Assembly (NCBI GenBank): GCA_017558505.1
Contig: JAFYUM010000036.1
Coordinates: 1-64,000 of the forward strand
DNA: 64,000 bases
Direction of reading: 5' to 3'
From: Ruminococcus sp.
GTDB taxonomy: Bacteria > Bacillota > Clostridia > Oscillospirales > Ruminococcaceae
The notes beneath the pieces were generated by a model. That model was not told where the DNA came from and searched no databases. It saw nothing but the letters and a program-made list of their open reading frames with translations. How positions within the stretch are numbered: the first letter of the stretch is position 1; every line of letters starts with the position of its first letter. The position numbers were made by a program, and so were the translations under genes. Positions 14,925 to 21,437 of the stretch are shown one piece after another.

Positions 14925-15905
14925 ATGCTTAAAAAGACAGTTTCAGCGGTGTTAACCGCTGTTTTATCGCTTACAGCTTTTGCGTCGTGCAGTTCCGATG
15001 TGAAAAGTGATAACGGAAAAATAAATGTTGTTTGTACTGTATTTCCCTGCTATGATTGGACAAGGCAGATTGTCGGCGACAGCGAAAATGTGGATATTAC
15101 ATATCTTCTCGATGACGGTTCCGATTTGCACAGCTTTCAGCCGACAGCCGATGATATGATTCGTATTTCTGACTGCGATGTTTTCGTTTATATTGGCGGC
15201 GAGTCAGACGAATGGGTGGAAAAGGCTCTTGAAAATGCCCGCAATAAGGAAATGAAGGTAGTAAAGCTTATGGACAGCCTTTCAGAATATCTTGAAAATG
15301 AAGAGCATAAAGAGGGTATGGAGGATTCCCATGACCATGAGGACGAGCACGCACATCACGATGAAACTGCCTACGATGAGCATATATGGCTTTCTCTCAA
15401 TAATGCACAGGTGTGCGTAACTGACATTGCCGAAGCTATTTCTGCTGTTGACAGTTTTAATGCACAGACATATTCCGAAAGGGCGAATGCCTATAATACT
15501 GAATTACAGCTTCTTGACAGAAGTTTTCATATGATGTTTGACGATAATCCGAAGACGTTGATTTTCGGTGACCAGTTCCCATTCATTTATTTTACAAGTG
15601 ATTACGGACTTGACTATTTTGCGGCTTTTTCGGGATGTTCAGCGGATATTGAGGCAAGTTTTGAAACTATAACTTTTCTTTCGGAAAAAATGGACGAGCT
15701 TAATGCAGAAACAATATTCGCAATTGAAAAATCCGATTGCAATATTGCAGAGGCAATTGTTTCAAATACAAAGGATAAATCACAGGATATAGCTGTCCTT
15801 GACTCGGTACAGTCGGTAACCAAAAAACAGATTGATGAGGGTTATACTTACAAATCAGCTATGGAAAACAATTATAATATACTGAAAGAGGTATATGCTT
15901 CGTGA
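14925..15905 (+). CDS. Metal-binding lipoprotein of zinc-type ABC importer
   Basis: This is a 326-residue ZnuA/AdcA-like substrate-binding lipoprotein. The signal peptide ends in lipobox FASC, so it is anchored outside the membrane. An acidic, His-rich loop (about residues 125-148, with HDHEDEHAHHDE) is the hallmark of zinc-binding members. Conserved metal ligands are suggested by LHSF and DEHIWLS. It is first gene of the three-gene importer, behind a Fur-family box. Manganese cannot be excluded without structure. Confidence 0.9.
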   Translation: MLKKTVSAVLTAVLSLTAFASCSSDVKSDNGKINVVCTVFPCYDWTRQIVGDSENVDITYLLDDGSDLHSFQPTADDMIRISDCDVFVYIGGESDEWVEKALENARNKEMKVVKLMDSLSEYLENEEHKEGMEDSHDHEDEHAHHDETAYDEHIWLSLNNAQVCVTDIAEAISAVDSFNAQTYSERANAYNTELQLLDRSFHMMFDDNPKTLIFGDQFPFIYFTSDYGLDYFAAFSGCSADIEASFETITFLSEKMDELNAETIFAIEKSDCNIAEAIVSNTKDKSQDIAVLDSVQSVTKKQIDEGYTYKSAMENNYNILKEVYAS

Positions 15906-16618
15906 GTGAACAGATTATATGCTCCGATGTAGCTTTAGGCTATGAGGACGGCATTGTTACAGAGGGGCTTAATTTCAGCGTAAGCAGCGGTGATTATCTC
16001 TGCATACTGGGCGAAAACGGCTCCGGAAAAAGTACGCTGATAAAATCGCTTCTTGGACTGAAGCCGCAGATAAGCGGAGAAATACGTTGCTGTGATGGCT
16101 TTTCTGCAAGGGATATCGGCTATCTTCCCCAGCAGACTCCCGTTCAGAGGGATTTTCCTGCGTCTGTACAGGAGATAGTAATATCAGGCTGTATTTCAAA
16201 GCTCGGATTTCGTCCATTTTATAGCAAGGCTGAAAAAAAGCTTGCCCTTGATACAATGAAACAGCTTGGAGTCGATGATATAAGTAAACGTTGTTACCGT
16301 GATCTTTCGGGTGGTCAGCAGCAGAGAGTTCTCCTTGCACGTGCTCTGTGTGCGGCAAGTAAGATGCTTCTTCTTGATGAACCTGTGACAGGACTGGATC
16401 CCATTGCACAGACGGAGCTCTATGAGTATATCCATAACCTCAATAAAAAGGGTATAACAATAGTTATGGTATCCCATGACATTTCGTCTGCTGTAAAATA
16501 TGCGTCACATATCCTGCATATATCGAAAAAACAACTTTTTTTCGGAACGAAAGAGGATTATATAAACAGCAAGGCAGGACAGCGTTTCCTTGAAAGCGAG
16601 GTGGGCAGCGGTGAGTGA
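15902..16618 (+). CDS. Metal ABC importer ATPase
   Basis: This is a 238-residue ATPase. Walker A GENGSGKS (37-44), Q-loop YLPQQ, signature LSGGQ (135-139), Walker B LLLDEP and switch His in VSHD are all canonical. The GTG start overlaps the lipoprotein stop by 4 bases (GTGA). It pairs with the permease at 16611 as the ZnuC-like subunit. Confidence 0.93.
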   Translation: MSEQIICSDVALGYEDGIVTEGLNFSVSSGDYLCILGENGSGKSTLIKSLLGLKPQISGEIRCCDGFSARDIGYLPQQTPVQRDFPASVQEIVISGCISKLGFRPFYSKAEKKLALDTMKQLGVDDISKRCYRDLSGGQQQRVLLARALCAASKMLLLDEPVTGLDPIAQTELYEYIHNLNKKGITIVMVSHDISSAVKYASHILHISKKQLFFGTKEDYINSKAGQRFLESEVGSGE

Positions 16619-17468
16619 AATAATTTCGACATTACAGTATTATTTTTCTCATTCCCTTGTGTGGTACGCTCTTATAGTCGGAATGCTCATTGCGCTCTGC
16701 TCGTCACTTCTTGGTGTTTCATTGGTGCTTAAGCGATTTTCATTTATCGGTGACGGTTTATCCCATGTGGCGTTTGGTTCAATGGCGGTTGCAGCAGTTA
16801 CAGGAGTGACTGACAGAATGATAATTATTCTGCCTCTGACGGTACTTTCGGCTGTGCTGATACTTCGTACAGGCAGAAATACAAAAATACGTGGTGATGC
16901 TTCAATTGCCATGATTTCAGCAGGTGCACTTGCTGTTGGTTATATGCTTATGAATATTTTCCCTGTGTCGGCTAATATTTCAGCTGATGTCTGCGGCTCC
17001 CTTTTCGGCTCAACTTCAATCCTTACTTTAAGGGAAAGCGACGTATGGCTTTGTCTTGCCATGTCTGTTGTGGTTTTGATTTTTTTTGTATTGTTCTACA
17101 ACAGGATTTTCAGCGTGACTTTTGACGAAAGCTTTTCCAGAGCGACAGGGGTAAATTCCGATTGCTATAATCTCATTATTGCAATTATAACGGCAATAAT
17201 AATTGTTATAGCAATGAATCTTGTTGGCTCTCTGCTTATTTCAGCGCTTATAATTTTCCCTGCGTTGTCAGCTATGAGAGTATTCAGAAGCTTTAAAAGT
17301 GTAACTGTATGCTCGGCTGTTTTATCTGTCATATGTGCAGGAACAGGTATAGTTATGTCAGTACTCTGCTCAACTCCTGTGGGAGCGACTATTGTGACGG
17401 CTGATCTGACAGCATTTCTCATCTTTTCGATTGTGGGCATCATTACTTCTAAAAAGTGCAGAAAATAA
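16611..17468 (+). CDS. Metal ABC importer permease (ZnuB-like)
   Basis: This is a 285-residue ABC-3 family permease with about eight helices. The N-terminal GDGLSHVAFGSMAVAA motif and the GSLLISALIIFPALSA block are typical. I start at GTG 16611, preceded by GAGGTGG and overlapping the ATPase end by 8 bases. It is last gene of the operon, before a strong terminator. Confidence 0.92.
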   Translation: MSEIISTLQYYFSHSLVWYALIVGMLIALCSSLLGVSLVLKRFSFIGDGLSHVAFGSMAVAAVTGVTDRMIIILPLTVLSAVLILRTGRNTKIRGDASIAMISAGALAVGYMLMNIFPVSANISADVCGSLFGSTSILTLRESDVWLCLAMSVVVLIFFVLFYNRIFSVTFDESFSRATGVNSDCYNLIIAIITAIIIVIAMNLVGSLLISALIIFPALSAMRVFRSFKSVTVCSAVLSVICAGTGIVMSVLCSTPVGATIVTADLTAFLIFSIVGIITSKKCRK

Positions 17469-18331: not shown

Positions 18332-18538
18332 TTATTCAATCCCCTTGACAACAAAATCAGCGTCAGTAATTGTCTTTATAAGAAGTTCCTCGGAAACATC
18401 ACCTGTAATTTCCAGATAGGCACACTTATTTTCAAGGGAAACCTCCGCAGAAACGCCCTCAATTGCGTTTAAAAGTTTGGAAACTGTGCCTGTACAATGG
18501 TTGCACATCATACCGTCAATATAAATTGTTTTTTTCAT
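18332..18538 (-). CDS. copZ: Nested in-frame CopZ-like copper chaperone (candidate internal start)
   Basis: This 68-residue frame is identical to the C-terminus of CopA. ATG 18538 is preceded by GGAGG at 8-base spacing inside the copA coding region. The product, MKKTIYIDGMMCNHC onward, would be a normal-length CopZ with one CxxC. Either the two genes fused by loss of a stop codon with the ribosome site left behind, or both forms are still produced. Confidence 0.55.
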   Translation of the reverse strand: MKKTIYIDGMMCNHCTGTVSKLLNAIEGVSAEVSLENKCAYLEITGDVSEELLIKTITDADFVVKGIE

Positions 18539-20842
18539 TGTATTAACCTCCGTTTTTGTAGATATATGGTCATCTTTGGAAGCTTCTTCCCTATTTTTCA
18601 CCGTCTTGAAAAGATTCAGCCGCAGGGCATTTGTGACAACGCAGAATGAGCTTAAAGACATAGCCGCCGCCCCGAACATAGGATTGAGTTGCCAATGGAA
18701 AATAGGATAGAAAAGTCCAGCTGCAAGGGGTATACCCAGGCTGTTGTAAATCAATGCCCAGAATAGATTTTGCCTTATATTTCTCATAGTTGCACGGCTC
18801 AACCGAACAGCCTCCGCAGAGTCACGCAAATCACTGTTCATAAGGACAATATCTGCCGATTCTATAGCAATATCCTGTCCGCCACCTACGGCAATTCCAA
18901 CATCAGCCGCCGCAAGTGCAGGAGCGTCATTTATACCGTCGCCAACCATTGCCACACATTGTCCTGATTGCTGTAAATTACGTATTATAGCTGTTTTGTC
19001 GGCAGGTAGCAGTTCTGCATGCACTTCATCAATTCCGATTTCACGACATATTGCCTGTGCGGTTTTTGAGTTATCTCCTGTGAGCATAATTGTTTTTATG
19101 CCCAGATTGCAGAACATTTCCACAGTCTCTTTTGATGTGGATTTCACCGTATCAGCGGCAACAATAACGCCCACAGCCTTTCTATCAGCGGCTACAAACA
19201 ACGGTATACCACCGTTTTCAGCGGCTTGTGCGGCATTTTCTGCAATGTCGGAAATATCAATGTTGTATTGTTCCATAAGCCGCCTGTTACCGACGAATAT
19301 TTCAGTCCCGTTTACAATTCCCGATAGACCTCCGCCCTCTGTTTCCTTATAGTCACGGCAGGGGAGGGGAGAGATGTTGTTTTCTTTGCAGTAGCTGATA
19401 ATTGCCCTTGCAAGGGGATGCGATGAATTGGCTTCAAGGGATAGTGCATAGGCAACAGCTTTCCTTTCAGTAATTCCAAGAGGGAAAATTTCACGGATTT
19501 CTGGTTTTCCCTCGGTGCAGGTTCCTGTTTTGTCAAGGACTACCGTGGTTATTTTATGGGCGGTTTCAAGGCTTTCAGCAGATTTTATAAGGATACCGTT
19601 TCTGGCACCTATTCCTGTACCTACCATAATAGCTGTTGGGGTTGCAAGTCCCAGTGAGCAGGGGCAGGAAATTACGAGGACGGAAATTGCCGCTTTGAGA
19701 GCCGCCGCTGTATCGCCTGTTGCGATAAGCCATACAATTGCTGATATAATGGCAATTATAATTACAACAGGAACAAAAATGCCGCTTATTTTATCAGCAA
19801 AGCGTGCAATCGGAGCCTTTGAAGCGGCAGCATCTTCCACAAGTGAGATAATCTTCGACAGGGTGGAATCCTTTTCTGTACGGTCACACCGGCATTTTAC
19901 AAATCCCCCTGTTGAAACAGAGGCGCTCATTAACATATCGCCTATATTCTTTATAACTGGTATACTTTCTCCTGTCAGAGCCGACTGGTCAACGGAACAG
20001 CTACCCTCAATAACAGTGCAGTCACAGGGAACAGAAGCTCCTGATTTTATAAGTACAATATCTCCTACAGCGATTTCAGCGGCAGGAATTTCATCTTCTG
20101 TGCCATTACGCAGAACAATTGCAGTTTGTGGTGCGAGATTTATAAGTGCTGATACTGAGTCGGATGTTCTTCCTTTGCTTTTTGCTTCAAGGTATTTTCC
20201 TACGGTAATAAGGGTTAAAATCATTCCGCATGACTCATAATAGAGGTTCATCGTAAATCCGTGAGCCGTGGGAAAATTACCTTGTCCCATATAATAGGCG
20301 GTCATATACGTTCCGTACAAGCTGTACACGAAAGCGGCAGTTGCTCCGAGAGCAACAAGGCTGTCCATATTAGGAACACGGTTGAGCAGATTTTTAAAAC
20401 CGTTGTGGAAGAAGTGAAAATTAAGAGCGATAATCGGCAAAGTCAGCAACAACTGTGTCAGACAGAAAATCATCATGTTTTTCTGACCGTTGAATATTTC
20501 AGGAACAGGCAGCCCGAACATATGTCCCATACAGAGGTAAAACAGAGGAATCATAAAGCACAGCGAGAGAATAAGCCGTTTTTTCATGGCTGATAAATTG
20601 CTGTCTGATTCGGTTTTTTCAGCTTTTTTACCCACTTCGGAGGCACCGTAGCCTGCATTTACAACAGCGGTGATTATTTTTTCGGGAGATGTGATATTTT
20701 CATCAAATTCAGCCTGCATGTAATTCCGCAGGAGATTGACGCTTACAGCAGATACGCCATCAACAGCCTTTACAGCTTTTTCAACATGAGCCTGACATGC
20801 CGAGCAGGTCATACCCGTAACGTCAAATTTTACTTTCTTCAT
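18332..20842 (-). CDS. copA: Copper-translocating P1B-type ATPase with C-terminal CopZ-like domain
   Basis: This is an 836-residue copper exporter. An N-terminal HMA domain has CSAC at 13-16. Eight or so helices carry the CPC metal site (393-395), the phosphorylation motif DKTGT (D437), and GDGINDAP. After the last helices, residues 769-836 form a second complete HMA domain with CNHC (780-783). C-terminal HMA domains are unusual in CopA. This one begins with its own Met behind a perfect GGAGG (18547-18551), so a free chaperone may also be made. Operon order upstream: a 75-residue protein and a NusG-II protein. Confidence 0.95.
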   Translation of the reverse strand: MKKVKFDVTGMTCSACQAHVEKAVKAVDGVSAVSVNLLRNYMQAEFDENITSPEKIITAVVNAGYGASEVGKKAEKTESDSNLSAMKKRLILSLCFMIPLFYLCMGHMFGLPVPEIFNGQKNMMIFCLTQLLLTLPIIALNFHFFHNGFKNLLNRVPNMDSLVALGATAAFVYSLYGTYMTAYYMGQGNFPTAHGFTMNLYYESCGMILTLITVGKYLEAKSKGRTSDSVSALINLAPQTAIVLRNGTEDEIPAAEIAVGDIVLIKSGASVPCDCTVIEGSCSVDQSALTGESIPVIKNIGDMLMSASVSTGGFVKCRCDRTEKDSTLSKIISLVEDAAASKAPIARFADKISGIFVPVVIIIAIISAIVWLIATGDTAAALKAAISVLVISCPCSLGLATPTAIMVGTGIGARNGILIKSAESLETAHKITTVVLDKTGTCTEGKPEIREIFPLGITERKAVAYALSLEANSSHPLARAIISYCKENNISPLPCRDYKETEGGGLSGIVNGTEIFVGNRRLMEQYNIDISDIAENAAQAAENGGIPLFVAADRKAVGVIVAADTVKSTSKETVEMFCNLGIKTIMLTGDNSKTAQAICREIGIDEVHAELLPADKTAIIRNLQQSGQCVAMVGDGINDAPALAAADVGIAVGGGQDIAIESADIVLMNSDLRDSAEAVRLSRATMRNIRQNLFWALIYNSLGIPLAAGLFYPIFHWQLNPMFGAAAMSLSSFCVVTNALRLNLFKTVKNREEASKDDHISTKTEVNTMKKTIYIDGMMCNHCTGTVSKLLNAIEGVSAEVSLENKCAYLEITGDVSEELLIKTITDADFVVKGIE

Positions 20843-20844
20843 AC

Positions 20845-21072
20845 TTATTTGTTCATCATATTTTTTAATTCGCCGAATAACTCAACATCATTTTCATTTA
20901 CCTTGATGTTTGTTCTCATTGTATAGCCCTCGGCATTCTGCACGGTAATTTCAATAATGCTGTCCTTGTTGACCTCGCCTGCAGCGGCAGAGAGGAACAT
21001 CAGGAGCTTTGGGTGGTCTTGTGTGAAACGCTCAAAAAGGGGTTTGATTTTCATAAATGCCAATGGATTCAT
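20845..21072 (-). CDS. Small hypothetical protein beside copA
   Basis: This 75-residue soluble protein (MNPLAFMKIKPLFERFTQDHPKLLMF...) has a helical start and a beta-rich end. There are no Cys or His clusters. The start at 21072 has AAGGA upstream; the six extra codons to 21090 would overlap the previous stop. It ends 2 bases before copA begins. Similar short proteins are found next to copper ATPases in related Firmicutes as far as I recall, but I cannot assign a function. Confidence 0.7.
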   Translation of the reverse strand: MNPLAFMKIKPLFERFTQDHPKLLMFLSAAAGEVNKDSIIEITVQNAEGYTMRTNIKVNENDVELFGELKNMMNK

Positions 21073-21089
21073 ATTTATCGTTCCTTTCA

Positions 21090-21437
21090 TTATTTGTCAG
21101 AAAATCGCAGTATAAGGTGGTGTGGCAAGCATACGACAGGCATTTCCTCTGATTTGAGAACGCCTGTTTTCACACAGGTATTATCAGGGCAGTCAGCCTC
21201 GGAAATACGTATTTCACCATTTTTTATCTCAACTATATTATAACCGTCGTCCTTGTATTCTATCCTGATTGTTTCATTCTTTGCGGTGGATAAATCAAAG
21301 CTGTAAAGTTCGGTGCTATCTCGAAGAACAACTACTTTTCTGCTGTCAGCCGGACGTAGAAAATACAGTGATAATGCGGCAGATACCGCAAAAACGACTA
21401 TAACGCATATAAGAATAAATTTAACACCTTTTGTCAT
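21090..21437 (-). CDS. NusG domain II-containing membrane-anchored protein
   Basis: This is a protein of about 115 residues. An N-terminal membrane helix (KFILICVIVVFAVSAALSLYF) is followed by the NusG_II (DUF1312) fold, with IRISEADCPDNTCVKTG and CLPHHLILRF. These proteins are extracytoplasmic and carry two conserved Cys. In clostridia they often lie near FMN/redox or electron-transfer genes; function unknown. The start could be ATG 21437 or ATG 21449, which follows the terminator hairpin very closely. Confidence 0.82.
   Translation of the reverse strand: MTKGVKFILICVIVVFAVSAALSLYFLRPADSRKVVVLRDSTELYSFDLSTAKNETIRIEYKDDGYNIVEIKNGEIRISEADCPDNTCVKTGVLKSEEMPVVCLPHHLILRFSDK

Follow-up and report, generated by a model that had tools for sequence, protein, structure and literature searches.

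The copA gene studied here, from a member of the genus Ruminococcus, probably codes for two proteins. We give a probability of about 0.88, based on sequence comparisons, to the reading that ribosomes initiate in frame within the copA mRNA and thereby yield a free CopZ-like protein, besides the same domain tethered to the copper pump. The Shine-Dalgarno (SD) sequence and the start codon in question are under selection at the nucleotide level as a translation start, and far more than a hundred related genes, spread over one bacterial phylum, keep the internal start.

The window, by which we mean the whole stretch of 64,000 nucleotides analysed (contig JAFYUM010000036.1, assembly GCA_017558505.1), contains copA as a reading frame that runs from 20842 to 18332 on the minus strand without an internal stop. 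Judged from its sequence, the product is a predicted Cu(I) exporter. It scored 577 bits against the copper P-type ATPase profile TIGR01511 (cut-off 397), which makes it a member of that family, and its translation contains all the P1B motifs, namely SCPCS (the CPC membrane motif), DKTGT, SSHPL (the HP motif) and GDGIND (GDGxND). The features of the gene are the following.

18332..20842, minus strand: copA, predicted Cu(I)-exporting P1B-type ATPase with N- and C-terminal HMA domains (ORF of 836 aa; TIGR01511, TIGR01525, PF00122, PF00702)
20648..20827, minus strand: N-terminal HMA metal-binding domain, whose CxxC motif is CSAC, of the pump-domain type (PF00403, 56.7 bits)
19598..20137, minus strand: E1-E2 ATPase actuator domain, residues 236-415 (PF00122)
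18902..19552, minus strand: HAD phosphorylation/nucleotide domain, residues 431-647, with DKTGT and GDGIND (PF00702, sequence)
18539..18613, minus strand: linker between the last transmembrane helix and the C-terminal domain, approximately residues 744-768, fast-evolving and bearing the internal SD (variable in relatives except for the SD)
18547..18551, minus strand: internal SD, GGAGG, 8 nt before the ATG (sequence; anti-SD duplex -10.7 kcal/mol; kept in all 22 loci of the window clade defined below)
18536..18538, minus strand: internal start codon ATG, which is Met769 (GTG in three relatives; sequence and relatives)
18332..18538, minus strand: predicted free CopZ-like product of 68 aa, MKKTIYIDGMMCNHC... 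(PF00403 alone, AlphaFold2, Foldseek)

An 81-aa ORF without NCBIfam match (window positions 20845-21090, minus strand) stops 2 nt ahead of the copA start. At its own start, copA in the window has next to no SD (0.4 kcal/mol); given this weakness and the ORF ending just upstream, translation of copA may be coupled to that of the 81-aa ORF. Downstream of copA, on the opposite strand, lies a metal ABC transporter operon (14925-17468, plus strand) coding for a binding protein with a His-rich stretch, an ATPase and a permease, of the zinc/manganese type by appearance.

The first-pass annotation had described residues 769-836 as a complete CopZ-like domain fused in frame to the pump, and the domain analyses agree with it. 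PF00403 (HMA) matched the last 68 aa on their own with 38.3 bits (cut-off 24.8), and the AlphaFold2 model of the 68-aa product, computed with 32 relatives, has a mean pLDDT of 92.9 and the complete beta-alpha-beta-beta-alpha-beta ferredoxin-like HMA fold, the first strand of which begins at residue 2 of the internal product. Foldseek matched this model to CopZ (2qif and 6ff2, TM 0.86-0.89), to CopP (1yg0) and to pump metal-binding domains. The metal site of the C-terminal domain is CNHC and aligns with the CNHC of CopP 1yg0. A CxHC motif is present in 210 of 230 C-terminal sites of relatives, which is the CopZ/CopP form rather than the CxAC of pump domains and which we take to be typical of CopZ; the N-terminal domain carries C.[AS]C in 161 of the 162 relatives with a readable N-terminal motif. 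The scores stayed below the NCBIfam CopZ equivalog cut-offs (46.7 against 85 bits for the best model, CopZ_AFE_1862), and for this reason we call the domain CopZ-like and not CopZ. A profile check of the window's genome found no other small or standalone HMA gene.

As the first-pass annotation had noted, the ATG at 18538 is preceded in the copA frame by GGAGG at 8-base spacing; the codons read ACG GAG GTT AAT ACA ATG, so that a start codon and an SD at initiation spacing lie within an uninterrupted ORF. Local RNA at the start sites of relatives is on average more open than at other internal ATGs, and the window's own site, with 0.49 unpaired, is mid-range among the internal ATGs of its gene and not unusually open. 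To judge how rare such a site is, we computed a base rate on 464 kb of the window's genome, comprising 381 ORFs and 2642 internal in-frame ATGs. GGAGG occurred at -15..-6 before six of these ATGs, and two, one of them the copA site, reach -10.7 kcal/mol or better in duplex with the anti-SD. Since approximately 1.6% of genes carry one strong site, chance alone should place a few in each genome, and such a site in a single genome is insufficient as proof. Another gene of the same genome (L279:17894-19955, minus strand) has AGGAGG and an internal in-frame ATG about 69 codons before its stop, and might contain a second nested start.

Relatives were therefore decisive. The window clade consists of 22 distinct copA loci of about 69% identity or closer, found among 125 searched genomes of the genus and in public genome contigs. 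The public-contig loci were found partly by the pattern DGMMCNHC and are biased toward such a C-terminal domain; the genus, family and phylum searches were made without this bias. A stop codon between the two parts, which the first-pass annotation had proposed to look for in relatives, was found in none of the 21 other distinct window-like loci (21/21 open), and since all of them are open, the fusion does not stem from a sequencing error.

The amino-acid sequence of the linker is scrambled among the 22 loci, and the SD is always retained together with ATG or GTG. It reads NNG GAG, and the start codon follows three codons later. The internal start codon is ATG in 19 loci and GTG in three, never another codon, and all three valines at this position are thus encoded by GTG (usage 0.17). 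The GAG of the SD is present in 22/22 loci (usage 0.30). The codon before it is ACG, AAG, GAG or CCG, coding for four amino acids (T, K, E, P) with the third base always G. Synonymous recoding within the clade gave a Z of -12 for the SD. Only 5 of the 339 invariant columns other than Met and Trp in the 22-locus alignment keep one codon throughout, and the SD GAG is among them. The 301 columns with at least three amino acids include just two with an invariant third base: the NNG codon of the SD and copA's own start codon, which is ATG, TTG or GTG in the clade and provides a positive control that was not planned. In 22/22 loci, the SD at copA's own start is weaker than the internal one. A chance origin of the SD-ATG pair was rejected on the base rate, the codon invariance and above all the conservation of SD and start across relatives.

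The comparison was widened by adding 109 loci from a family search and fetching further loci, which gave 230 distinct C-terminal HMA sites. An SD core was present in 153 of the 163 sites (94%) that have a start codon where CopZ begins, in 14 of the 67 fused sites without a start codon (21%) and before 10.7% of 4482 other internal ATGs of the same copA genes; the enrichment at start-bearing sites gave a Fisher p of 1e-28. When codons were redrawn by each gene's own usage with the peptide fixed, the SD duplex at start-bearing sites was -8.2 kcal/mol as observed versus -4.8 kcal/mol as recoded (Z -16), and the start-less sites showed no SD excess in this test. The SD information peak stays at -15..-9, and the frame in which the SD is read differs by lineage (KE, KG, ER or GG), the register having changed at least 23 times along the tree. 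An SD that is constant in nucleotides and read in shifting frames points to selection on the RNA, not on the protein. A test on independent pairs of whether start and SD change jointly went in the expected direction, about 5 to 0 (p 0.06), but with too few supported pairs to have much power.

A phylum sample of 398 genomes, with families designated by group code only, yielded 50 fused genes, 47 of which, from 24 family codes, have both a start codon and an SD core. The other three have a start with a GGGGGT tract only, a start without SD, and neither. Three copA fusions of Bacteroidales (L034, L035 and L037) keep the ATG at the CopZ start without an SD, as expected, because Bacteroidales often begin translation without one. 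The first-pass proposal, that a single gene could supply the exporter with its tethered chaperone as well as a free one, is thus supported, at the level of sequence, by start and SD being kept together across family and phylum, and by the absence of both from those fused copA genes that form a natural control group.

The rare relatives in which copA and copZ are two genes mostly begin copZ at the same SD-ATG (e.g. L028, L160, L229, L322, L324, L341 and L344), and in L160 and L229 the copA stop overlaps the copZ start (ATGA); in a minority of split loci no SD core or no start can be recognised. If the split genomes make CopZ at all, they must do so from this same start. The existence of such split tandems makes an origin of the fused form from one plausible, and they also give some ground for regarding the SD and ATG of the fused genes as non-working relics of a separate copZ joined to copA by stop loss. 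We consider this very improbable, as relics are expected to decay. The SD is intact in every locus of the window clade despite synonymous scrambling that left only 5 of 339 columns with one codon, and it is kept in more than 90% of start-bearing loci across many genera; its register moves amount to turnover and not to decay, and ATG was replaced solely by GTG in the window clade. A working dual-start gene most likely arose from a split pair by stop loss, or gave rise to such a pair.

A similarly small probability goes to the C-terminal domain being solely a tethered regulatory or metal-binding domain, with an internal SD that tunes elongation through pausing or folding and does not serve initiation. 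The 67 sites without an internal start, found in a sister group within the same genus as well as elsewhere, indicate that fused domains of this kind do occur. Pausing, however, needs no start codon at the right spacing, yet the SD tracks the start codon (153/163 versus 14/67). Moreover, in tandem arrays of two to four C-terminal HMA copies (L236, L259 and L273) the ATG-SD pair is found in the last copy only.

Even less probable is that there is no internal start and that the nucleotides are kept merely because the fused protein requires the peptide K/T/P-E-V...M-K-K-T. In the window clade, Glu at -4 and Val at -3 are indeed almost constant, but residue -5 varies among T, K, E and P while its third base is fixed, the wider family reads the SD as different dipeptides in different frames, and recoding with a fixed peptide still gave a Z of -16. 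Least probable of all is a free chaperone made by a programmed frameshift after the N-terminal HMA as in E. coli copA (PMC5009743, PMC9548414), since in-frame X-XXY-YYZ heptamers occur in the window copA only at residues 443 and 789, neither of them close to where the first HMA ends. An internal promoter giving a copZ-only transcript was likewise rejected: a consensus scan found no promoter-like site on the coding strand just upstream of the internal start, and its sole minus-strand match overlaps and follows that start.

We also considered whether the internal start is complementary to standalone chaperone genes. A standalone small HMA gene is present in 6/22 window-clade genomes versus 17-18/22 start-less genomes. 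Small HMA ORFs are also present in about 17/24 other SD-bearing genomes of the wider family, so general complementarity, true in the window clade, fails there, and we do not argue it beyond the window clade. The three loci with GTG as internal start (L082, L090 and L093, in genomes G056, G050 and G081) are all in genomes with a standalone small HMA gene, which 3/19 window-clade genomes with an ATG internal start have; GTG in place of ATG perhaps reflects a relaxed need in these three.

In the mechanism that we propose, the copA mRNA would be translated from two in-frame starts. The 5' start would give the full Cu(I) exporter with the CopZ-like domain tethered at its C-terminus, and 30S subunits initiating independently at the internal SD-ATG (18551-18536, minus strand) would give the free 68-aa CopZ-like copper chaperone. 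Since the internal SD is the stronger one in every locus compared in the window clade, free CopZ could exceed the pump in molar terms and could be induced together with it. The chaperone would pick up Cu(I) in the cytosol and pass it on to the exporter. We infer ribosome initiation in vivo, the stoichiometry and the role in copper delivery from these sequence patterns. It also seems likely, with somewhat less confidence than for the internal start itself, that the dual-start copA is ancient and phylum-wide and represents a third solution for making CopZ, next to a separate gene and a frameshift. The strength of its internal start would be set so that chaperone outnumbers pump, and the start would weaken or disappear where the need is covered in another way.

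The first-pass annotation had cited the E. coli copA frameshift as another route to a short chaperone, and this is found in the literature. According to PMC5009743, E. coli copA yields the complete P1B ATPase and, through a programmed -1 frameshift, also CopA(Z), a free HMA chaperone some 70 aa long; PMC9548414 cites this finding and an independent confirmation. In both cases one copper-pump gene would give the pump and a free HMA chaperone, but the E. coli chaperone is the N-terminal HMA, released by a frameshift and an early stop, whereas here it would be the C-terminal HMA, made from an internal start. For Cas11 it is proved that the protein is the C-terminal part of cas8/cas10 products and is made from internal in-frame starts (PMC11899642 and work cited there). 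There too, an internal in-frame start in a large gene gives a small C-terminal protein that works with the large one; the family is unrelated, and the proteins considered here would be a chaperone and its client, not subunits of one complex. Cop operons with a separate copZ beside copA encode the same two activities together, but the fused genes lack the stop codon, and the chaperone therefore also exists in a form tethered to the pump. P1B ATPases with a C-terminal metal-binding domain and no internal start, among them same-genus relatives such as L094 and L097-L107, have the same domain order; unlike the window copA, they have neither start codon nor SD and would make the tethered form only.

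No earlier description of a chaperone start inside copA turned up in the paper library searched, which covers the subscription literature in part. We therefore regard the internal-start copA chaperone as provisionally new, and as a new form of the known principle that one gene can give two proteins. Gene finders that keep a single ORF for each stop codon would overlook the short product, so that a conserved copper chaperone is probably absent from many annotated proteomes of gut bacteria. An SD conserved in nucleotides within a linker of drifting amino acids offers a general way to find nested genes, and the three groups of relatives (fused with start, fused without start, and split) let the roles of tethered and free chaperone be separated. 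If true, the internal start would be an independent and evolutionarily recurrent route to what E. coli copA does by frameshifting, and such recurrence would imply strong selection for making a free chaperone from the same message as the pump.
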